Shown in pieces: positions 27,289 to 38,663 of a stretch of DNA of 64,000 nucleotides. Position numbers and translations under genes: made by a program. The notes beneath the pieces are model-generated. The model was not told the DNA's origin and made no database searches. It saw only the letters and a program-made list of their open reading frames with translations. Position 1 is the stretch's first letter; each line of letters starts with the position of its first letter. This DNA comes from Saprospiraceae bacterium. Lineage in GTDB: Bacteria; Bacteroidota; Bacteroidia; Chitinophagales; Saprospiraceae. The stretch is taken from assembly GCA_021739645.1 (NCBI GenBank), contig JAIPBL010000009.1, positions 1 through 64,000 of the forward strand, given 5' to 3'.

Positions 27289-27480
27289 AAATATCAAGTT
27301 GAATTTGGAAAAAATATCCAAAATTGAATACGGAATAATATTTGATAAAATATTGACAATCAAATTTTTATAAAAAATTTGTTACAGATTTATTCTGTGA
27401 AAAATCCAAAAATAACTTAAAAAAGTATTTTTTCAATAGCTAAGCTCGAAGCACTTTTGTACTATCAAATTCTATCAAGC

Positions 27481-30400
27481 ATGAAAAACATTATTTATTC
27501 CGCTTTTTTATTGGGTAGCTGCTGCTTCGGTGCTTTGCAAACCCAGGCTCAATGCCATATTTTCGACCTTGTGGCAACGGAGAGTGACTGCATCAACGGC
27601 GAGTTCTTCGTTACCATCAACTTTCAGTACAGTGGTACAGGCAACGAAGGCTTCCATATTCAAGGCAATGGCAACAATTATGGAAATTTCGCCTACACTG
27701 CGCTTCCTGTTACGCTTGGCCCATTTCCAGGTAACGGAACCAGTGTCTTTGAATTCGTGGCCATTGATAATAATCACAATGACTGTCATGATTTCGATAC
27801 CGCTGGCCCAGTGAACTGCAATGGGGGGAACTGCGATATTTTTGACTTCGTGGCAACTCCCGGAGACTGTAACAACGATGGAACTTATCCACTCACACTG
27901 AATTTTGAGGTGGTAAATAATGCACCTCAAAACCATTTCGATGTGATTTACGAAGGGCAAAATATTGGCTATTATTCCATCGCTGACTTGCCTATTACGA
28001 TACCTCATTTTGACGATAATGGAGAAACTGGGCAAGTGATTCAGGTCTGCATCAACGATATGCCGGACTGCTGTGCGGTTGACGAGTTCACCGCCCCAAA
28101 CTGCAATCCTACCGGTAATTGCGACATCAATGATTTGGTCATTGAAACGGGCGATTGCAACTCCGACGGCACTTATCCCATTTCCATTGACTTCAATTAC
28201 GTCAATCCCGGCAACGATTACGTCAACGTTATTTTTGAAGGGCAAACCATTGGGACGTATTTGCTGGCCAATCTCCCCATCCATATTGAGCATTTCGATG
28301 ACCTTGGCATTGAGCATCCCACTGTGCACGTTTGTATCAACGATGTGCCGGATTGTTGCGCCCATTTAACCTTCACAGCTCCAAACTGTAACCCAACCGG
28401 AAGCTGCCATATTTGGGATGTTTTCGCCGAGGCGCACCCCTGCAACAACGATGGGCAGTTCCTCCTCGATGTTGAGTTCAATTACCAGAACACTGGCAGT
28501 CAAGGCTTCAAAATTCGGGCTGGAACGCATTGGTTTGGGCCATTTGCCTACGGCGAACCGTTTTACACCATTGGGCCACTCGACCCAGGTGTGGTTTATG
28601 AAATCGTAGTTCGGGATGTGGAAAACGAATCCTGCAAGGGTGTTTACGTCTTTGGCCCGGTAAATTGCAGCGGCGACTGCCATATTTACGATATGTCAGT
28701 TCAGGTGTCTGATTGCAATGCCGAAGGACAGTTTTTTGTCACCATTGATTTTCAGCATGAAAACACTGGTAATGACGGCTTCAAGATTTACGGTAACGGG
28801 AATGTTTATGGCTATTTTAGCTACAACGATTTGCCAGTGACGATTGGCCCGCTCACCAGCAGCAACGACCAGTTGGAGTTTGGGGCAGCAGATACAAGCC
28901 ACCCAGCTTGCCACGATTTTGCGGAGGTGCAAGTTCCCGACTGTGATGGCGGTGGCGGCAACTGCCATGTTTTCGACTTGGTAGCGGACGTGCATCCTTG
29001 TTTGCCAAACGGCACTTTTTATGTCACGCTGAACTTCCAGCATGAGAATACAAGCGGCCATTTTAAAATAAAAGGTAATGGCATCACCTACGGCATCTAC
29101 AGTTATGATAACCTGCCAGTGGAAATAGGCCCGCTTGTCGGCAATGGTACCACACCGTATGAGTTCGTGGCAGTTGACATTCACAACGAAGACTGCAAAG
29201 ACGACATCAGCATCGGTACGATTGATTGTAACGGAACGGGCGACTGTGAAGTGCACGACCTCATTGTTGACCCAAGCGACTGCAACCCCGACGACTCCTA
29301 CAACCTCTGGGTTTGGTTTCAAGTAGAACATCCGGGCAACAATTTTTACGAAGTGTACCACAACGGTGTATTCGTGAACTACTACCCATTGACACATATC
29401 CCGGTCACTTTGCCACACTTGTTTGCCAACAATGAACCTCTGCAAGAACTCAAAATTTGCATAAACGATAATCCAGATTGCTGCATGACCATCAGTTACG
29501 AAGCACCGAACTGTGACGGCCTGGTTTATCCCGGTGATGGCAACCGAGACAATATTTGCAACAACTTTGATATTTTGAACTTGGGACTCGCCTTTGGTGC
29601 AGAGGGGCCACACCGAGCAGTGCAAGGTTTCGAATGGACAGGGCTGGAGGCTCCAAACTGGAACCAACTTTTCGGCGACGGAGTAAATTTCAAAAATGCA
29701 GACTGCACCGGAGATGGAGTTGTGGACCTAATTGACCTTGCGGCCATCCACTTGAATTTTGGAGAAACACACGGCGGCCCAATGCCAATCGCCTTTGTGC
29801 AAGGTGGTGAGAACGATCCACCGCTTTATGTTGATTTACCAGCAGCTAGCGCCCTACAACCGGGAATGCAGTTCAGCGCACCAGTCATGCTCGGCACAAT
29901 TGATGCCGCTTTGGAAAATGTGTACGGACTTGCTTTTACTTTGAAATTTGATACAGAAATCATCCAGCCTTCCAGCATTGACCTATTGTACAACCCTAGC
30001 TGGCTCGGCGTTCAGGAGGTTAATTTGCTCACATTCGACCGTACACTGGCTGATCAGGGCGAGGTCAAGGTCGCACTGGTGCGAACCGACCAAAACAACG
30101 TTTCTGGGTACGGACAAATAGCGGGCATCATTGGTATCATTGACAATATCGCTGGTAAGGAGAGCGTGGCCATTGAAATCACGGATGTAAAAGCCATTCG
30201 GGAAAACGAGGAATTGATTTCGCTTCGCAAACCCATCGAGGTGGTGAATTTGAACCTAGATGCCAGTCATGAGCAAATTGAACAAGTAATGGCTGTTTAT
30301 CCAAACCCTGCCAATAACGTGGTTTATTTCACTTTGCCAAACAATGCCATCCCCGATTTCGTGGAAATAAAATCGGTAGATGGTAAGCAATTGTTGAACA

Positions 30401-30507
30401 GTAAGACAGGTGACAATAAGCTGAACATCAATCATTTAGGTGCTGGAGTTTATATTTTGCGAGTAAAGTCTGGAAATAGGGTTTACACGCAGAAAATCGT
30501 TAAGTGA
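27481..30507 (+). CDS. T9SS cargo protein with seven Cys-rich repeats, dockerin-like and cohesin-like modules
   Basis: 1008 residues. The signal peptide is residues 1-24 (MKNIIYSAFLLGSCCFGALQ-TQAQ). Seven tandem ~92-residue beta repeats occupy residues 25-680. Each opens C-x-I/V-x-D, has a second Cys near position 13 and closes with a Cys in a P-N-C or V-N-C triplet. Then come a dockerin-like Ca-binding pair (GDGNRDNICNNFDILNL and DCTGDGVVDLIDLAAIHLNF, about 681-765), a cohesin-like beta-sandwich (about 775-910: VYGLAFTLKFDTEIIQPSS) and a sorting domain (about 930-1008: VMAVYPNPANNVVYF). It is predicted to be exported by T9SS and disulfide-rich. The ligand is unknown, but repeated lectin- or adhesin-like binding is plausible. 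Confidence 0.82.
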   Translation: MKNIIYSAFLLGSCCFGALQTQAQCHIFDLVATESDCINGEFFVTINFQYSGTGNEGFHIQGNGNNYGNFAYTALPVTLGPFPGNGTSVFEFVAIDNNHNDCHDFDTAGPVNCNGGNCDIFDFVATPGDCNNDGTYPLTLNFEVVNNAPQNHFDVIYEGQNIGYYSIADLPITIPHFDDNGETGQVIQVCINDMPDCCAVDEFTAPNCNPTGNCDINDLVIETGDCNSDGTYPISIDFNYVNPGNDYVNVIFEGQTIGTYLLANLPIHIEHFDDLGIEHPTVHVCINDVPDCCAHLTFTAPNCNPTGSCHIWDVFAEAHPCNNDGQFLLDVEFNYQNTGSQGFKIRAGTHWFGPFAYGEPFYTIGPLDPGVVYEIVVRDVENESCKGVYVFGPVNCSGDCHIYDMSVQVSDCNAEGQFFVTIDFQHENTGNDGFKIYGNGNVYGYFSYNDLPVTIGPLTSSNDQLEFGAADTSHPACHDFAEVQVPDCDGGGGNCHVFDLVADVHPCLPNGTFYVTLNFQHENTSGHFKIKGNGITYGIYSYDNLPVEIGPLVGNGTTPYEFVAVDIHNEDCKDDISIGTIDCNGTGDCEVHDLIVDPSDCNPDDSYNLWVWFQVEHPGNNFYEVYHNGVFVNYYPLTHIPVTLPHLFANNEPLQELKICINDNPDCCMTISYEAPNCDGLVYPGDGNRDNICNNFDILNLGLAFGAEGPHRAVQGFEWTGLEAPNWNQLFGDGVNFKNADCTGDGVVDLIDLAAIHLNFGETHGGPMPIAFVQGGENDPPLYVDLPAASALQPGMQFSAPVMLGTIDAALENVYGLAFTLKFDTEIIQPSSIDLLYNPSWLGVQEVNLLTFDRTLADQGEVKVALVRTDQNNVSGYGQIAGIIGIIDNIAGKESVAIEITDVKAIRENEELISLRKPIEVVNLNLDASHEQIEQVMAVYPNPANNVVYFTLPNNAIPDFVEIKSVDGKQLLNSKTGDNKLNINHLGAGVYILRVKSGNRVYTQKIVK
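27553..29520 (+). repeat. Seven tandem ~280-bp coding repeats
   Basis: The repeat units code for two sub-types. Type A (units 1, 4, 5, 6) carries G-F-x-I-x-G-N-G-like and I-G-P-L motifs. Type B (units 2, 3, 7) carries V-I-x-E-G-Q-like and C-I-N-D-x-P-D-C-C motifs. The units have diverged well beyond recent duplication, so the array is old. Confidence 0.75.
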
Positions 30508-31307: not shown

Positions 31308-32393
31308 GTGGAAGAACTGAAACAGCATCTAAAGTCGGTACTCATTGACGACCTCCCGCAACTTTTCAAACAGTTGAAGGAGTTGCTGCTTGTTTCATCG
31401 GCAGCTTACAATGAAACGATTCAGCAAGAGGCTAGGTACAACCAGATGGATACCGAAAAATTGGCCGGTAGGGTTTCCGCAGATAATGCCAACCTTGTTT
31501 TTAACCAAATCACCGCCAGTGTCACCAAAATCATTGACAGCCTAGAGCCTCAAGACCTCAAATCCGCTCCTTCCGTCGGTCAGGGCCTGCACGATTACCA
31601 CCGATTTACCTGCGACCGGGTGGACCAAAGCGACAAATTCCAACAAATTTTCCGGGAGAAAAATACCGCCAGAGCACAGTTTTTCTACCTCTACGGCCTA
31701 GACCTCCAATCGCACAAAGGCATGTTCAAGCGCATCGCTTTTGACATGGAGGGAAAATTACAGGACTACCTCAACCCCGGTTTGAAAAGCGGGAACAAAT
31801 CCCTGCAAGTGGAGCTGACCTTCGATGCGAGCCGTGACCTCGAAATTTACAAGCAAAATGTAATCAAAAACCTGTTCTCTGCCTTTTCCATCCGGGTGAA
31901 TGAAAACGAGCCGCTGCTGAAAAAGGATATTGCCTGGTTGCAGAAAATCAGCCCAGTTTTACAGGCACTTGGCGATGGGGATTTTGTCTGCATTTTCATT
32001 GGCGTCAGCCAATGGGATTGGGATAAAGAAATCACACCGACAATTTTCCGATGGTTTGTCACTGAATTTTGTGGAGTAGCCCTGCCGGATAATAGCCCTG
32101 ATTATTTGTTCTTCTTTGGCATCATTTACGAAGAAGACAACTCCCAAATCGAAAAGGAGGTCGAAGCTTTGATTAGCCAAAGCGACCTCATTCAGCCATT
32201 GCCAGAGCTAGGAATGGTACGGATGAACGACATCGGGACTTGGTTCAACAAGTACAGTTTTATTGCCCCCGGCTCACGGGAACTGAAAGAACTTCGAAAC
32301 CAATATTTTGGCAGCTCCAATGAACACTACATGGAAGATGTGGAATTGGCACTCCAAAAATTGATTGACGAATACAACAAAAAGTTTTTCTAA
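31308..32393 (+). CDS. EAD11-like / inactive-STAND (iSTAND)-like protein of a conflict system
   Basis: 361 residues, GTG start. Residues ~5-80 fit an effector-associated domain of the EAD11 kind: an all-helical region with a central EARYNQMDTEKLAGRVS and NQITASVTKIIDSL. Residues ~100-300 match the iSTAND pattern described for bacterial conflict systems: a CDRVDQSDKFQQIF start, AQFFYLYGLDLQSHKGMFKR, then FDMEGKL and an alpha/beta body without a Walker A loop. In that literature (Kaur, Burroughs, Iyer and Aravind 2020) EADs bring components together by like-with-like contact, and iSTAND proteins sit beside MoxR or STAND NTPases. It is followed 59 bases later by a moxR gene. The assignment rests on pattern recognition only. 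Confidence 0.68.
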   Translation: MEELKQHLKSVLIDDLPQLFKQLKELLLVSSAAYNETIQQEARYNQMDTEKLAGRVSADNANLVFNQITASVTKIIDSLEPQDLKSAPSVGQGLHDYHRFTCDRVDQSDKFQQIFREKNTARAQFFYLYGLDLQSHKGMFKRIAFDMEGKLQDYLNPGLKSGNKSLQVELTFDASRDLEIYKQNVIKNLFSAFSIRVNENEPLLKKDIAWLQKISPVLQALGDGDFVCIFIGVSQWDWDKEITPTIFRWFVTEFCGVALPDNSPDYLFFFGIIYEEDNSQIEKEVEALISQSDLIQPLPELGMVRMNDIGTWFNKYSFIAPGSRELKELRNQYFGSSNEHYMEDVELALQKLIDEYNKKFF

Positions 32394-32452
32394 GGATTTT
32401 TGAGAGTATTCTACATATAATCTTAACATCCTGCTTAAATCAACCCATCAAA

Positions 32453-33397
32453 ATGAAAATCGCACTTCACCCCCGCATTACCCAACCATTTCGTCCGCAA
32501 GATTACATCCTCCACGAAGCCTTGAAAAATGCCGTGGAAGTGGCCATTGCACTTGGTCAGCCGCTGCTGCTCACAGGCGAACCAGGTACCGGAAAAACCA
32601 AACTGGCACAAAAAGTGGCACTTGACCTTTCTAGTTTATCCGGTTCAAATTTTGCGGACAAACCCTTGATTTTCAATACAAAAACCACCAGCGCTGCAAG
32701 GGATTTGTTTTATACCTACGATGCGTTGTCGCATTTTCAAGCGGCGAACATCAAGCAGTTGGAAGGGGCAAAAACCCTCAAAATGGCTGACTTCATTGAG
32801 TTGCAGGCGCTAGGAAAGGCCATTGCTTTTAGCAATCCGGCGGAAGTGGATGGCTCGAAATTCAGTACGCCGCTTCCCGCCAAACCGCAAAGCTCCATCG
32901 TTTTGATAGACGAAATAGACAAAGCCCCCCGTGATTTTACCAACGATATTTTGGATGAAATCGAGAACTATCGGTTTTCGATGAAGGAGCAAGACAACTA
33001 CCACATGGCCAAGTCCGATGACCAGCATATTGTGGTCATCATGACCAGTAATTCAGAGAAAAACCTGCCCGATGCCTTCTTGCGCCGCTGCGTTTTTTAC
33101 CATATCCCATTTCCAACAGACGACTTGCTTCGTGACATTGTGAAAACGCAACTCGGTGGCAGTACCAAGTTTACTGAACAGATGCTGGATACAATGATTG
33201 AAAAATTCAATGCCATTCGAAAACGGGCTGTTCGCAAACCACCTGCGACTGCTGAACTCATCGCCTGGCTTCGGATTCTCGAAATGCAAAATTTCATGGA
33301 GGCCAACGATGCCAAACAACGTGCACAACTGCTTGACAATCTGTCCATTCTGGTGAAAACGAGGGAAGATTTGGAGGCGGTGAAAGGGGTGTTTTAA
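32453..33397 (+). CDS. MoxR-family AAA+ ATPase
   Basis: 314 residues. LLLTGEPGTGKTKLAQKVA is Walker A (42-49), IVLIDEIDKAPRDFTNDIL is Walker B (149-154) with the following MoxR-type insert, and VVIMTSNSEKNLPDAFLRRC carries sensor 1 and the arginine finger. The FYHIPFP and RKPPATAELIAWLRILEMQ segments form the lid. Unlike general metabolic MoxR proteins, it sits between an EAD-iSTAND-like gene and a membrane vWA-like/FGE giant, the order expected for MoxR-centred conflict or signalling systems. ATP-driven remodelling of the giant partner is the likely role (inference). Its 3' end overlaps the vapC-like gene by 4 bases on the opposite strand. Confidence 0.85.
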   Translation: MKIALHPRITQPFRPQDYILHEALKNAVEVAIALGQPLLLTGEPGTGKTKLAQKVALDLSSLSGSNFADKPLIFNTKTTSAARDLFYTYDALSHFQAANIKQLEGAKTLKMADFIELQALGKAIAFSNPAEVDGSKFSTPLPAKPQSSIVLIDEIDKAPRDFTNDILDEIENYRFSMKEQDNYHMAKSDDQHIVVIMTSNSEKNLPDAFLRRCVFYHIPFPTDDLLRDIVKTQLGGSTKFTEQMLDTMIEKFNAIRKRAVRKPPATAELIAWLRILEMQNFMEANDAKQRAQLLDNLSILVKTREDLEAVKGVF

Positions 33398-33756
33398 ATT
33401 GGATTTACAACGGTAAGTCCGGGTATTTTTTGGAAATCGGAAATGTTTCTGGTGTAAAGTTCGAGGTTGTGTAGTAGGGCAGTGGCGGCAACCAAAGAAT
33501 CTCCAAGTTTGATTTTCTGTTTTTGACGGACTTCAATCGCCTTCACCAAAACGGTTCTGTCAACTTCAATGATTTGGAGAATTTTAAAAACACTTTCAAA
33601 GTATTTCTCATCGACAGGGTGCAAATTTTGAAACCCGAAGGTTTCCACCAATGAAATAGCTGAAACAAAATTAGTAGCATCCATTACAAGCGGGCGCAAG
33701 TAACTGAAATCAGGATTTGCCGAGTAAATTATGATGTTCGAGTCAATTATTTTCAT
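33394..33756 (-). CDS. vapC: PIN-domain toxin, VapC-like
   Basis: 120 residues. PIN-domain acidic residues are in place: MKIIDSNIIIYSA (first Asp), SAISLVETFGF (Glu), KLGDSLVAATALLHNLELYT (third Asp, with N-I-S-D-F giving the fourth). PIN toxins are Mg-dependent RNases that cut tRNA or rRNA and are held by the partner antitoxin. The gene overlaps the antitoxin gene by 4 bases (33753-33756), typical of translational coupling, and lies within an otherwise plus-strand system. Confidence 0.85.
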   Translation of the reverse strand: MKIIDSNIIIYSANPDFSYLRPLVMDATNFVSAISLVETFGFQNLHPVDEKYFESVFKILQIIEVDRTVLVKAIEVRQKQKIKLGDSLVAATALLHNLELYTRNISDFQKIPGLTVVNPI

Positions 33757-34004
33757 GATGGACGGGCTGAACGAGCATCATCGCTCCGGTCTTCTTCGAG
33801 CCATTTTAGCATTTCATTCATCCTATCGTCGGTCATTAAGCCTCCGGTCTTGATGATGTTGCGATGATATTCCAGGTCTTTTTTTTCGGGTTTGGATGCC
33901 CCGTTTTTTTCGACCTGTTTGAATTTCAGGCCAAGTCGTTGAACCAGCATCAACAATAATTGCAGGTCGTTTTTATCGGAAACTTCTATCGAAACAGTAT
34001 GCAT
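33753..34004 (-). CDS. Antitoxin of the PIN toxin-antitoxin pair
   Basis: 83 residues: MHTVSIEVSDKNDLQLLLML begins a short beta-strand/helix start seen in small antitoxins. A Lys/Glu-rich linker follows and then a helical tail (RNIIKTGGLMTDDRMNEMLK) that would wrap the toxin. It precedes the PIN gene in the usual antitoxin-toxin order with a 4-base overlap. No classic AbrB or RHH motif is obvious, so the VapB class is uncertain. It is probably autoregulated from the promoter at 34054-34084. Confidence 0.7.
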   Translation of the reverse strand: MHTVSIEVSDKNDLQLLLMLVQRLGLKFKQVEKNGASKPEKKDLEYHRNIIKTGGLMTDDRMNEMLKWLEEDRSDDARSARPS

Positions 34005-34053
34005 GGCAGTAAAATTTTTATTGAAAAATGAGACTGTTAAAAACCTCAGTACA

Positions 34054-34084
34054 CAAAAGTAAGCCCTGAACCACTCATTTCAAA
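34054..34084 (-). promoter_or_regulatory. Promoter of the toxin-antitoxin pair, overlapping the giant gene's start
   Basis: On the minus strand TTTG (34081-34084) and TACTTTTG (34054-34061) are 19 bases apart, a near-perfect Bacteroidota promoter. It lies 50 bases before the antitoxin ATG. It overlaps the first codons of the plus-strand giant gene. Confidence 0.6.
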
Positions 34085-37000
34085 ATATCACCTTTCCACT
34101 CGACTCCTTCCTCCAACGGCTGGAACTCGCAGGTTTTTCCATCAGCCCAGCTGAGCGGCTGCGGGTATTGAAATTGTTGGAAAGCTCCAGTCAAGGCATT
34201 CTGAAATCGCCCGAAAAGTTGAAATTCCTGCTGTGCCCGGTGCTGGTACAGGGCAGGGCAGAACAAGAGCGGTTTTACGAATTGTTCGACCATTACTGGG
34301 AGGAACTTCAGCAGCCTTGGGAAATGCCAGCAATGGAACCAACTGCAAATCGCCAATTTCCCGGTTGGCTGAAAATGGTGCTTGTTGCGCTGTTGATGGG
34401 TGGCTTGGCCTGGGCCGTTATCGAACTCCTCAAGCCGCCGCCGCAATCCCTAAAAGTTTTCTTCGACCACCCACCGACCGTTGCCATTGGCGATACGGTG
34501 TATTTCAAAAACCTGTCTGAAAATCTTGACTCCACGGCTTTGCAATGGGAAATCGTTGACACTGCAACGAGCCAAACAGAACTGCTTGATACCCAATCAT
34601 TTAACCTCGATTTTGTAGTAAAACATGCGGGAAAAAACAACGACCGATTGGTTCGGCTTACCAGTCTAAACACCCAAGACAAGCAAACTGGCAAGCCCAT
34701 TTTTCATGAATCATCCTTCCATATTAAGTGCAGCAATCCACCAACAATAGATACGATTATTGCCCCACGGGAAATAATTCTTGAAAATGAGCCGACCGAA
34801 TTTCTTAGCAAATTATCGAAGGCCGAAGCAACAAAGTACAAGGCTGAAATCGCCAAAATAAACCAACGTGAAGATTCAAAACCAACGGGTGATTCAAGGC
34901 CAGAGGTTACCTATGGTGGCGCTATTTTCGAGGTAAAGCTGCTTGATGACCAAGATGTTGAACTGACTTGGGATTTTGGTGATAGCACCACGGCCACTGG
35001 CAGCATAGTCTCTCATTTATACACTAAAACTGGTGTTTACAACGTGCGCTTAATGGCCACCAGAACCGGCCAGGATGGGGATTGTTCGGTGGTGAAATTC
35101 ACCCAAGTAAGTGTTGGCAGGGACAAAGCCTACCTGGCATCAAGACTGCTGGAAAAAGACCAAGTGGATGCTATGGTCAACTTTTCGATAGGAACTTGGG
35201 TATTGATGGGCATTTTGGGGCTGTCAATCATTTGGTTTTGGATAAAATGGGCAGCAAGAAAACCGCCACCCCCGCCTAAAGAAGGCGAATTTGACCTTAA
35301 GGCTGCGGCAGAACGATACAAGTCGGCGGATAAAGGCCCTTACTTCATTCCATTTCGACCGCAAGAAGGCTACATCCGCATGGAGCCGCAGTTCTATCGG
35401 TTGGCCGATGTACTTAGGATACGGCAGGAAGGTCTGCGAAGAAATATGGACGTGCCCGCCTCGGTCAAAAAAACAATCGCAGAAGGCGGGTTCCCAAGCC
35501 TGCTCAGCAAAGCGGACACCGTCGTGACGGAATACCTGTTTTTGGTGGATGAGGCAGCAGCGGGTAGTCACCTGTCTAATTTGTACACGTTCTTGGTGGA
35601 TTTCCTTCGGAAAAGGGAGGTGCTCGGCGAGGTGTTTTATTTTAAAACAGAACCCATTCGGTTCTGGAATGACCATTTCCCAGAAGGAGTTAACCCCGAC
35701 CAACTTCATCGGCTTTTTCCTTACCACCGACTCATCATGCTCGGCAACGGGCATGGCCTACTTGACCCGCACACGGCTGGAAATCAACCAATCCCGGCGC
35801 TTCGGCCCGACGCCAAAGGCTTTTTCAATCAATGGAAACAGCGACTATTGCTCACACCGATGCCCGTTATTTCCTGGACGTTCCGAGAAGGTGTTCTTCA
35901 CAGGCTTTTCCCCGTTTTCCCAAGTGACACCGATGGGCTTGGGGAAGCGATAAAGTTTTTGGAAAGGGGTATGGATGGTGAGGATTTGCCCACCTATACC
36001 TCATGGTGTGAGCGTTTGCTGGAAGGTCGCAAAGAACCAGACCTAAATTACCGCCGTTGGCGAACAGCCGCTGACCACCAAGATTACCTGAGCGCCCACC
36101 CACAGCTTTTCCAATGGGTGTGCGCCTTGGCTGTTTACCCAAAACCCGATTGGAACATCACACTGACCATTGGCCGTGCCTTGGCACCTTTAGGATTGGA
36201 GCTTAACTACGACAACCTGCTGATTATCAGTAGAATACCTTGGCTGCAAACGGGCGATTTACCGCTTCGCCTCCGAAAAGAGTTCTTGAATGACCTAAAT
36301 CCTGAGTTTGAGCGACTTGCACGGGAGGCTGTACAAACGGAACTGAATGTCGTGGAATCTTTGGTAAAGGGAAGCCATGTTAGTCAAGAACACCAAGTCA
36401 ATCTTGCGCTGCAGAACTTTGCCATCGCACCGGGCAGTTCAGCGGCACAGGTTTCTATCAGGGAATTGCTTGCACTGAACCTCCTAACTCCCCGGGCACT
36501 TTCCGAGTTGAACCAAACCGTGGAACGGCATGTCCAGCTTTCTGAATTGGAGAAAAAGGGCATGATGGCGCAAAATTCTATGCTCTCGAAAATGGCCAAA
36601 TTTGAGCCAGAAGTGCCAGATATTCATCAGTTTTTGAAAGAAAACAAGCCTGAACCAGCTCAACCTGAAAAGCCGTTTTTTACCAAAGATTTTTGGCGAG
36701 CAGTAGCCACAAGCCTGCTTTATCTGGTGATTTTCTTGGTTGCATGGAATTACAGCGCAACGAACCAATTGGCGGACTGGATATTACCAGCAGGTGAATC
36801 CAAAACCAATTGCGAAGAAAAATATCTCTATGCCCGTTTGTTCAAAAAAGAATGTGTGGCCGATAGCGCCGTGCTATTTAACAACGCTGGCGTAGATGCC
36901 TACTTGGCGGCAACTGACACGGTTGGCGCTTATGGCAGTGGCAGGTCAGACTTTGAAAAAGCCAGTTTATTGATGGAGGCTGAAAAAGACTTTGGTCGTG

Positions 37001-38607
37001 CAATTTCGCTGCGACCTGACTACCCAAAGGCATTGGCAAACCTCGGAAGCTATTATTTCAACGCTGCCAACGTGTTATATACCGCCTCCCTTGAAGGGCT
37101 TGATTTGACAAAGGCTGGCCCGGTTTCCCCCACTGTGCTTTGGGACGAAGTGTTGCCCTATTTCCGAAAAGCAATCCCTTTCGAAAATGTCAAGTATGAT
37201 GCACTCCATGGAATCGGGTTGGTCCATTTTTACAGCGAGCGCCAGGATTCCGCATTGGCTTTCTACAATATTTTAAGGGAAGAAACAGACAGCCTCTTTT
37301 TTGATACGCTTCAAATGTTCCCCAACCTGCAGACCCTCTTGGCTCGGAGCGTGAAGGATATCACCGATGAGGTCACCGTTTCAGTAACGGAGGACAGGAC
37401 GGGCAAGCCGTTAAGCAGTGTCAGCGTCATTTCCAAAGACTTCACTGGACGCACTGACAGGGCTGGGAAAATTGTTCTCAAAATCCCCAAGGGCGAAAAA
37501 CGCACGTTTGATTTTGTGCTTAGAGGCTATGAACCCGCTGTGATGGAGTTGAACCCATCAGCAGGCAACCGTTTCTTTAAAGTAAAATTGAGCAAAGTAA
37601 GCGCCCAAGCCTCTGAAGCACAGGCATCAGTGGTCGAAAGGGACTCCGACAAAGACGGTGTGCCGGACAAACTGGACAAATGCCCCAACGAAAAGGGCCC
37701 GGCTTCGAATTACGGTTGCCCCGTTCGAGATGAAATTCCAACAAAATCAGATTCATCCAAGGTGGTTTTCCCACAAGACCCAGTAATGAAATTCAAAGAA
37801 CCCGAAATGGTCTTTGTAAAAGGCGGCACCTTCCAGATGGGCTGCGACGAGAAACGGGATGGGGAATGTGCGAAGGATGAAAAGCCTGTCCATGATGTCA
37901 CCCTCAGCGATTTTTCCATCGGGAAATACGAGGTCACCAATGAAGAATACGCTGTTTTCTTGAACGAATATGGTTCGACCACCGGGAAAGAGGGGCAATT
38001 CAAAGGTCAGGAATTGATTGGAGAATACAAATGGGGCATCGCCTTCCCGACACCCGACAACAGCCAAAAGGGCATTAGTGATATTACCAAAACCACTTAC
38101 CAGGCCCAAAAGGGATACGAAAAATATCCCGTTGTCAATGTGACTTGGTACGGAGCAGTAGCCTACACCGAATGGCTCTCCCAAAAAACAGGCAAGAACT
38201 TCCGCCTGCCTACCGAAGCAGAATGGGAGTACGCCGCACGGGGCGGCAGCCAATCCAAGGATACAAAGTACAGTGGTAGTAATAACCTGGACGAAGTTGC
38301 GTGGTACTCAGAAAACTCAGGAAATCGAACCCATTCTGTTGGGCAAAAAAGAGGCAATGAACTGGGTGCCTTCGATATGAGCGGCAATGTTTGGGAATGG
38401 TGCGGTGATTGGTACGATGAAAACTATTACCAGAACTTTGTAAAAGGAAGCACAAATAATCCAAAAGGACCAGCTTCTGGTGTCCGCCGTGTGTTGCGTG
38501 GGGGCTCTTGGGACAACGGAGCAACTTGGCTTCGTCCGGCCGACCGTAGCTGGGGCAACCCGGGCGGCAGGTACGACAACGACGGCTTCCGGGTGGCGCA
38601 GGGCTAA
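34066..38607 (+). CDS. Giant membrane protein: CoxE-like head, PKD, vWA-like, TPR, TSP3 and FGE/SUMF1-fold domain
   Basis: 1513 residues if translation starts at CTG 34066 (first codon after the in-frame TAA at 34060 that could serve); TTG 34168 is the next option but would cut into the N-terminal helical head (FPLDSFLQRLELAGFSISPA, PEKLKFLLCPVLV, YELFDHYWEELQQ) typical of CoxE/vWA partners of MoxR. Order: TM at ~101-122; PKD-like modules ~127-350 (VELTWDFGDSTTATGS); TM ~376-394 followed by KPPPPP; degenerate vWA-like Rossmann region ~484-655 (EYLFLVDEAAAGSHLS, no D-x-S-x-S MIDAS); helical part; TM ~880-900; TPR-like ~940-1095; carboxypeptidase-regulatory-like ~1102-1180; TSP3 repeat (DSDKDGVPDKLDKCP); FGE/SUMF1-fold domain ~1247-1513 (RLPTEAEWEYAARGG, FDMSGNVWEWCGDWYDE). 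The end GFRVAQG lacks the catalytic Cys of true FGEs. Confidence 0.75.
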   Translation: MNHSFQNITFPLDSFLQRLELAGFSISPAERLRVLKLLESSSQGILKSPEKLKFLLCPVLVQGRAEQERFYELFDHYWEELQQPWEMPAMEPTANRQFPGWLKMVLVALLMGGLAWAVIELLKPPPQSLKVFFDHPPTVAIGDTVYFKNLSENLDSTALQWEIVDTATSQTELLDTQSFNLDFVVKHAGKNNDRLVRLTSLNTQDKQTGKPIFHESSFHIKCSNPPTIDTIIAPREIILENEPTEFLSKLSKAEATKYKAEIAKINQREDSKPTGDSRPEVTYGGAIFEVKLLDDQDVELTWDFGDSTTATGSIVSHLYTKTGVYNVRLMATRTGQDGDCSVVKFTQVSVGRDKAYLASRLLEKDQVDAMVNFSIGTWVLMGILGLSIIWFWIKWAARKPPPPPKEGEFDLKAAAERYKSADKGPYFIPFRPQEGYIRMEPQFYRLADVLRIRQEGLRRNMDVPASVKKTIAEGGFPSLLSKADTVVTEYLFLVDEAAAGSHLSNLYTFLVDFLRKREVLGEVFYFKTEPIRFWNDHFPEGVNPDQLHRLFPYHRLIMLGNGHGLLDPHTAGNQPIPALRPDAKGFFNQWKQRLLLTPMPVISWTFREGVLHRLFPVFPSDTDGLGEAIKFLERGMDGEDLPTYTSWCERLLEGRKEPDLNYRRWRTAADHQDYLSAHPQLFQWVCALAVYPKPDWNITLTIGRALAPLGLELNYDNLLIISRIPWLQTGDLPLRLRKEFLNDLNPEFERLAREAVQTELNVVESLVKGSHVSQEHQVNLALQNFAIAPGSSAAQVSIRELLALNLLTPRALSELNQTVERHVQLSELEKKGMMAQNSMLSKMAKFEPEVPDIHQFLKENKPEPAQPEKPFFTKDFWRAVATSLLYLVIFLVAWNYSATNQLADWILPAGESKTNCEEKYLYARLFKKECVADSAVLFNNAGVDAYLAATDTVGAYGSGRSDFEKASLLMEAEKDFGRAISLRPDYPKALANLGSYYFNAANVLYTASLEGLDLTKAGPVSPTVLWDEVLPYFRKAIPFENVKYDALHGIGLVHFYSERQDSALAFYNILREETDSLFFDTLQMFPNLQTLLARSVKDITDEVTVSVTEDRTGKPLSSVSVISKDFTGRTDRAGKIVLKIPKGEKRTFDFVLRGYEPAVMELNPSAGNRFFKVKLSKVSAQASEAQASVVERDSDKDGVPDKLDKCPNEKGPASNYGCPVRDEIPTKSDSSKVVFPQDPVMKFKEPEMVFVKGGTFQMGCDEKRDGECAKDEKPVHDVTLSDFSIGKYEVTNEEYAVFLNEYGSTTGKEGQFKGQELIGEYKWGIAFPTPDNSQKGISDITKTTYQAQKGYEKYPVVNVTWYGAVAYTEWLSQKTGKNFRLPTEAEWEYAARGGSQSKDTKYSGSNNLDEVAWYSENSGNRTHSVGQKRGNELGAFDMSGNVWEWCGDWYDENYYQNFVKGSTNNPKGPASGVRRVLRGGSWDNGATWLRPADRSWGNPGGRYDNDGFRVAQG
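38499..38604 (+). other. Candidate DGR variable region at the 3' end of the FGE-fold domain
   Basis: The last ~35 codons encode RGGSWDNGATWLRPADRSWG, then NPGGRYDNDGFRVAQG. This is the same frame as known DGR variable regions on C-type-lectin/FGE folds (G-G-S-W ... R-x-A-x-R ... N-P ... G-F-R-V). Codons at exposed positions are GAC, AAC, AGC, GGC and TAC, exactly those reached from AAC by changing only A. The fixed codons between (CGT, CCG, CGG, GTG) contain no A. Confidence 0.5.
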
Positions 38608-38663
38608 GTCACCCTTTGTCACTTTTAAACTTTTACCCTTTGTCTTTTTTCTTTTGATTTTTT

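Follow-up and report, generated by a model that had tools for sequence, protein, structure and literature searches.

We analysed a 64,000-nucleotide stretch of DNA from a Saprospiraceae bacterium (GCA_021739645.1, contig JAIPBL010000009.1, positions 1-64,000, forward strand; hereafter the window) that encodes an EAD11-iSTAND protein, a MoxR-type AAA+ ATPase and a giant membrane protein, the last containing a degenerate von Willebrand factor A (vWA) domain and ending in a formylglycine-generating enzyme (FGE) domain. We show that, in some relatives of this locus, a neighbouring diversity-generating retroelement (DGR) rewrites the tip of the giant protein. For the window itself, we consider it probable that the three genes make up an iSTAND-type MoxR-vWA ternary conflict system acting as a membrane-spanning receptor, with an FGE tip that resembles the variable region of a DGR. 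A role of this system in immunity is inferred.

A neighbouring retroelement rewrites the tip of the giant protein in relatives

Using the reverse transcriptase (RT) of the window genome as a query in all 43 giant-bearing genomes, we found an RT at most 0.9 kb from an FGE-ended giant gene in four relatives, G266, G041, G286 and G272. Mismatches between template and variable region fall on template adenines in 12 of 13 cases in G266, 16 of 18 in G041, 18 of 18 in G286 and 19 of 20 in G272 (65 of 69 over the four relatives), a bias for which the binomial chance probability ranges from 8e-7 to 2e-12. The block homologous to the template begins sharply inside the last part of the gene and ends near the stop codon. 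Because the mismatches are adenine-specific, we conclude that the neighbouring DGR rewrites the tip of the giant in these relatives.

Three of the four DGR-linked relatives are iSTAND systems according to Pfam: G266 and G272 carry EAD11-iSTAND and MoxR genes and G041 a TIR-iSTAND gene. The gene preceding MoxR in G286 gave no Pfam match. A fifth case (G196:C20), outside the 41 loci that we compared, combines EAD11, an iSTAND match just below the cut-off, MoxR and an FGE-ended giant with an RT that runs off its contig. RT fragments adjoining the DGR RT in G286 (G286:C5:510812-511326) are perhaps a second, broken DGR.

The 41 loci comprise 40 fetched neighbourhoods and the window and are a subset of the matches in the 43 genomes. 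The C-terminal part of the giant varies from locus to locus, with an FGE match in 18 and none in 23 (L050 and L057 being truncated where their contigs stop). A DGR adjoins the giant in four of the 18 FGE-ended loci, and the 23 loci devoid of an FGE match have no RT match within 20 kb.

The window tip resembles the variable region of a DGR

By homology to the DGR-written ends of the relatives, the giant protein of the window ends in a C-terminal FGE variable region of DGR-target form (Table 1). A gene-less, 172-base copy of this cassette lies behind a TIR-FGE gene at C115:47021-47192 and is 84% identical, including the 3′ flank of about 50 bases. Further homologues were found in G377:C11, within a 331-aa FGE frame, and in G222:C27, gene-less behind an FGE gene. 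The four cassettes align over 113 columns, 32 of which are variable, distributed as 14, 12 and 6 over codon positions 1, 2 and 3; at least one copy has an A in 23 of these 32 columns, and nine hold none.

Between the window and G377, 28 of 38 tip residues are identical, against 87 of 172 in the FGE body. Compared with the giants of G222, G214, G375, G374, G380 and G190, tip identity is 10-19 of 36-38 residues, and the FGE body shares 121-167 of 215-236 residues with its orthologues. Body differences from G214 number 47, 30 and 113 at codon positions 1, 2 and 3 over 225 codons, and because they crowd third positions the FGE body is, by this codon pattern, under purifying selection. Judging from these alignments, the tip was apparently brought in whole, an outcome to be expected of DGR copying or of recombination.

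The window genome has a single RVT_1 match, on C51, accompanied by an Avd gene (NCBIfam NF033474, 92 bits against a cut-off of 80). The RT itself scores below the cut-off of every NCBIfam model; we assign it to the DGR type from the Avd gene, the adjoining template and motifs that we take to be of DGR type. This DGR (C51:40883-42191; L015, L089) consists of RT, a divergent Avd and a template, and its exact partner gene was not found. Aligned with the window end over 121 bases, the C51 template gives 69 matches, 18 mismatches at template adenines and 34 other mismatches. Against the TIR-FGE end on C115, 15 of 35 mismatches lie at A (P 0.015), and by this comparison the template would at best be an old partner of the TIR-FGE end.

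A BLAST search with the window end in its own genome (E up to 1) returned seven matches, of which only the self match and the C115 copy are long, and no template. A sample of 120 genomes of the family, where only the window's own genome matched, yielded no cognate template, nor was one found in genomes of the genus or in adenine-tolerant ungapped scans of a set of loci. Phages and plasmids gave zero matches to the window end. The gene-less copy on C115 was considered as a template and rejected, since 9 of its 21 mismatches fall where it has no A. Among 14 genomes of the genus, an RT of this type occurs in the window genome only; two further matches at 24-26% identity were not counted as DGR. 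Because the cognate template was not found, we do not regard it as proven that a DGR targets the window copy. Because the sole DGR found in its genome has a non-matching template, the window tip is probably frozen or orphaned, its diversification having stopped or depending on something that is unassembled.

These results bear on the strongest alternative, namely an iSTAND ternary system in which an ordinary, constant FGE domain serves as the ligand-binding or effector end and the DGR-like tip is an inheritance with no present role. Three observations favour it: no template for the tip was found in the window genome, 14 of the 18 FGE-ended loci lack a DGR beside the giant, and the ends of G242 and G173 have nearly one protein sequence. 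However, a constant end would not lead one to expect a window tip whose divergence from orthologous tips greatly exceeds that of the FGE body, nor one that is common, as a unit, to non-orthologous FGE genes, and we regard this explanation as unlikely.

Variable FGE ends parked outside genes, each downstream of an FGE gene and with a repeated 3′ flank, were observed in two species, at C115:46881-47192 (L009, L088) and at G222:C27:3221-3537.

It is also conceivable, if improbable, that the tip cassette is exchanged between FGE genes and that, once the DGR is lost, recombination supplies the receptor with sequence from silent parked copies. If true, parked-copy recombination would constitute a second, template-free mode of diversification in an iSTAND system, beside DGR-made variants.

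An absent standard start codon and a VapBC-like insertion

The initial annotation gave the giant 1513 residues, a length that holds only if the gene is read from CTG 34066, as there is no standard start ahead of the head. The first in-frame ATG, GTG or TTG is TTG 34168, and a start there would truncate the conserved head. Among the 39 loci in which the 5′ end could be inspected, a count by eye found the window and 10 others (Table 1) to lack any ATG, GTG or TTG in the interval from the upstream stop codon to the head; L063, L064 and L065 are borderline. CTG is the common candidate start in the window, G222 and G214, and ATT or ATC in other loci. Frameshifting or read-through from moxR into the giant was considered as the cause of the missing start. 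Since only a subset of loci have the giant in the moxR frame, initiation at a near-cognate codon (CTG, ATT or ATC) seems the more likely of the two. Weak initiation may even be deliberate, and may keep the receptor scarce.

Furthermore, the three genes reported initially are all present but do not form one unbroken run, as a VapBC-like pair on the opposite strand splits moxR from the giant. It consists of a PIN toxin gene and an 83-aa open reading frame (ORF) in antitoxin position, which has no Pfam or NCBIfam match. By eye, similar sequence occupies the equivalent place in G214, an antitoxin-like remnant is left in G222, and the 138-base gap between moxR and the giant in G190 has no VapBC-like sequence; because of this pattern, insertion of the pair into the operon seems to have taken place within the genus. 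We do not count the pair among the core components. The insertion, the DGR-type variable end and the absent standard start all go beyond the initial annotation.

The same features could be signs of decay, the insertion in the operon, the head with no upstream ATG, GTG or TTG and the missing cognate template being what one would expect of a non-functional relic that has lost its standard start and its DGR. Yet the frame is intact over more than 1479 codons, the third-position bias of the FGE body relative to G214 is that of purifying selection, and 10 other loci are open despite having no standard start. We therefore hold decay to be improbable and retain the receptor reading.

Domain architecture and proposed mechanism

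Table 1. Features of the iSTAND-MoxR-vWA locus, by position in the window, and related loci
Feature	Coordinates or loci	Strand	Basis or remark
EAD11-iSTAND adaptor gene (361 aa, GTG start)	31308..32393	+	Pfam
MoxR-type AAA+ ATPase gene (314 aa, ATG start)	32453..33397	+	Pfam AAA_5 1.5e-11, above cut-off
PIN toxin gene	33394..33756	-	PF01850 6.7e-11
83-aa ORF in antitoxin position	33753..34004	-	ORF only
vWA-FGE giant membrane protein	34066..38607	+	Open frame; 1513 codons from CTG, 1479 from first TTG
CoxE/MadC-like helical head	34066..34380	+	Kept across 12 aligned loci
Transmembrane segment 1, predicted (residues 104-122)	34375..34431	+	Hydropathy scan
PKD domain	34927..35085	+	PKD_4 1.3e-10, above Pfam cut-off
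Transmembrane segment 2, predicted (residues 375-393)	35188..35244	+	Hydropathy scan
Degenerate vWA domain	35521..35973	+	Structure model and weak VWA_CoxE matches
Transmembrane segment 3, predicted (residues 876-894)	36691..36747	+	Hydropathy scan
FGE-sulfatase domain, C-type-lectin-like fold	37798..38598	+	PF03781 2.2e-59 over this interval
DGR-type variable-region cassette (final 40 codons and about 50 bases of 3′ flank)	38484..38655	+	Homologous copy; template pairs of relatives
Other loci with no standard start	L048, L050, L051, L052, L056, L060, L066, L072, L084, L087		

The coordinates and gene order of the initial annotation proved correct, with a GTG-started ORF, an ATG-started ORF 59 bases further on and a long ORF ending at 38607. 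Its EAD-like head and iSTAND-like body of the first gene are borne out by EAD11 (5.9e-14) and iSTAND (PF19995, 4.2e-17), both above the Pfam cut-off. The AAA+ assignment of the second gene is likewise confirmed by AAA_5. No MoxR-specific model scored above its cut-off, and the MoxR type is assigned from the iSTAND and vWA neighbours together with motifs that we presume to be those of MoxR. A PADLOC search returned no match for the first gene or the giant. For the MoxR gene it matched AAA+ models such as TRIP13 (1.3e-10) and mad8 (4.8e-7), which we read as general AAA+ similarity.

In the giant, the FGE/SUMF1-fold end annotated initially is strongly supported (FGE-sulfatase 4.5e-58 on the whole protein, above the Pfam cut-off). 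The AlphaFold2 model of this domain is poor, with a predicted local distance difference test (pLDDT) score of 65, below 50 in the variable end. Of the smaller domains, PKD is above the Pfam cut-off, but the matches to TSP_3 (9.5e-4) and TPR_1/TPR_11 (0.016) are below it. For the CoxE-like head, the N-terminus of NCBIfam VWA_dom_MadC matches six of 12 head sequences (best 7.3e-5) and PhaE TIGR01834 three of 12 (best 7.2e-4), but the window copy matches MadC weakly (0.094) and has zero Pfam matches.

The Pfam scan of the whole giant left the vWA region uncalled, and VWA_CoxE matches this region weakly in seven of 37 aligned homologues (best 4.8e-4, window copy 0.084). A profile of the region searched against PDB sequences found no vWA chain, its single match being unrelated (E 1.8), and the fold was therefore tested by a structure model. 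The model has a pLDDT of 92, and its best structure matches are the NorD vWA domains in NorQ-NorD complexes (9qhg, 9qhf, 9qh6). Two metal-binding aspartates are common, though not invariable, in the vWA domain; in the window copy, as judged by eye, one D comes after strand 1 (VDEAA) and DxSxS is not retained. The modelled fold thus upholds the initial vWA-like label and identifies the region as a degenerate vWA domain.

The hydropathy scan agrees with a membrane protein, predicting three transmembrane segments, the second followed by a stretch rich in K/R; the same scan gives one to four hydrophobic segments in the homologues. Because of these three segments and the K/R-rich stretch, the head and the vWA domain would lie in the cytoplasm beside MoxR and the iSTAND protein, and the PKD domain and the TPR-TSP3-FGE arm in the periplasm. 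Under this hypothesis the FGE tip would bind an invader or a surface ligand, and binding would alter the vWA domain's hold on its partners. Using ATP, the MoxR ring would then remodel the vWA/iSTAND complex, and EAD11 would recruit other EAD11-bearing effector proteins, which might limit spread or kill the cell. The roles proposed initially, with the giant as sensor or anchor, MoxR as remodeller and the EAD-iSTAND protein as relay, are hypotheses for every component.

EAD11 is present in 24 of 24 genomes searched, all picked for having the giant, with 11 matches in the window genome; copies were located only among the matches listed. Two copies elsewhere in the window genome were scanned with Pfam: one shares its protein with a TonB C-terminal domain, and the other shows no second Pfam domain.

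With a DGR rewriting the outward end of a membrane-spanning vWA protein in some of these systems, the idea of a diversified antigen sensor becomes testable in a lineage with cultured members. The loci also offer a natural comparison of one receptor with a DGR, with none, and with an apparently frozen tip.

Conservation of the three genes

At E up to 1e-10 and with the FGE part excluded from the query, 43 of 298 genomes sampled from the order contain a homologue of the giant. The initial annotation had staked the three-gene association on co-occurrence in related genomes, and the neighbourhood comparison found iSTAND, MoxR and giant together in 23 of the 41 loci, two of these iSTAND matches being weak (1e-5 and 9e-4). 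Nine loci have MoxR and giant with iSTAND undetected. In L072 the MoxR match is partial and more distant, and iSTAND was detected by Pfam scan. No partner was detected in eight loci, some of which are contig fragments (L049 and L050 belong to the same G214 gene, split in two). Overall, a MoxR homologue adjoins the giant in 33 of 41 loci, including L072 as a distant partial match.

Relatives among 19 named loci belong to Saprospiraceae, Lewinella and other Bacteroidota metagenome-assembled genomes, and farther ones to Larkinella, Foetidibacter and Chitinophaga. Lewinella cohaerens DSM 23179 (L181; contig shared with G242) has the three genes and an FGE end, and no DGR was found at its locus.

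Relation to known systems

The available part of Kaur et al. 2020 (PMC7159879) describes iSTAND ternary systems made of MoxR, a vWA protein and an iSTAND protein, some with EAD. It presents them as dominating among the MoxR-vWA ternary systems found in multicellular Proteobacteria and Bacteroidetes, as predicted from genomes, and their anti-invader function is there a prediction only. A CoxE-type head is typical of the vWA component, which has transmembrane segments in about 28% of cases and FGE (there FGS) in about 22%, FGS being the commonest C-terminal end on vWA proteins of iSTAND systems. The window locus shares with these systems the MoxR ATPase, the EAD-headed iSTAND protein and a vWA protein with head, predicted transmembrane segments and variable C-terminal end. 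By this composition it belongs to the iSTAND ternary conflict systems already published, and because of this fit the initial suggestion that the domain fusion may be undescribed falls. What differs from that account, as far as the available text goes, is that four FGE-ended relatives here adjoin a DGR with a matching template.

In the same part of PMC7159879, association with DGR is given for VMAP systems of cyanobacteria and gammaproteobacteria, and the accessible text of Kaur et al. 2021 mentions DGR with NTPase-FGS systems. Dore et al. 2024 (PMC10907252), in the portion available, report DGR targets in MoxR ternary systems whose partners are VMAP or other proteins; its main text does not contain the words iSTAND, Bacteroid- or Saprospir-. 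Shared with the systems described there is a MoxR gene beside a target gene that ends in an FGE/CLec variable region and is proposed to encode an antigen sensor, whereas the partner here is iSTAND. VMAP is not among the Pfam matches listed for the window proteins (for moxR, the best 25 of 32 families), and the third component of the window system is EAD11-iSTAND and not VMAP. We recognised no report of a DGR on an iSTAND system in the open PMC literature, preprints and supplements being outside the scope of the search.

The giant also resembles NorD, the vWA domain of which is its best fold match and the partner ATPase of which is also a MoxR-type AAA+ protein. NorQ-NorD acts on nitric oxide reductase, and we know of no EAD, iSTAND or FGE part in it. 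That the window pair is a housekeeping chaperone of CoxD-CoxE or NorQ-NorD kind, maturing or assembling an envelope enzyme outside conflict, is the least probable explanation, very unlikely in our judgement: the NorD vWA structures as nearest solved relatives and the MadC resemblance of the head speak for it, but the EAD11-iSTAND partner, C-terminal ends that differ from locus to locus, patchy spread (43 of 298 genomes) and the DGR linkage in relatives all argue for the receptor.

Other observations

Elsewhere in the window genome, one protein unites EAD11 with a TonB C-terminal domain (C66, L223:786-2618), an odd partner for an effector-associated domain. At C41 (L224:2149-2949), EAD11 is preceded by a part that by eye resembles the COR region of Roco GTPase proteins. 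Within the window, 27457-30507 encodes a cysteine-rich protein of 1016 aa that has similar repeats and a C-terminus resembling, by eye, a type IX secretion system (T9SS) sorting signal.

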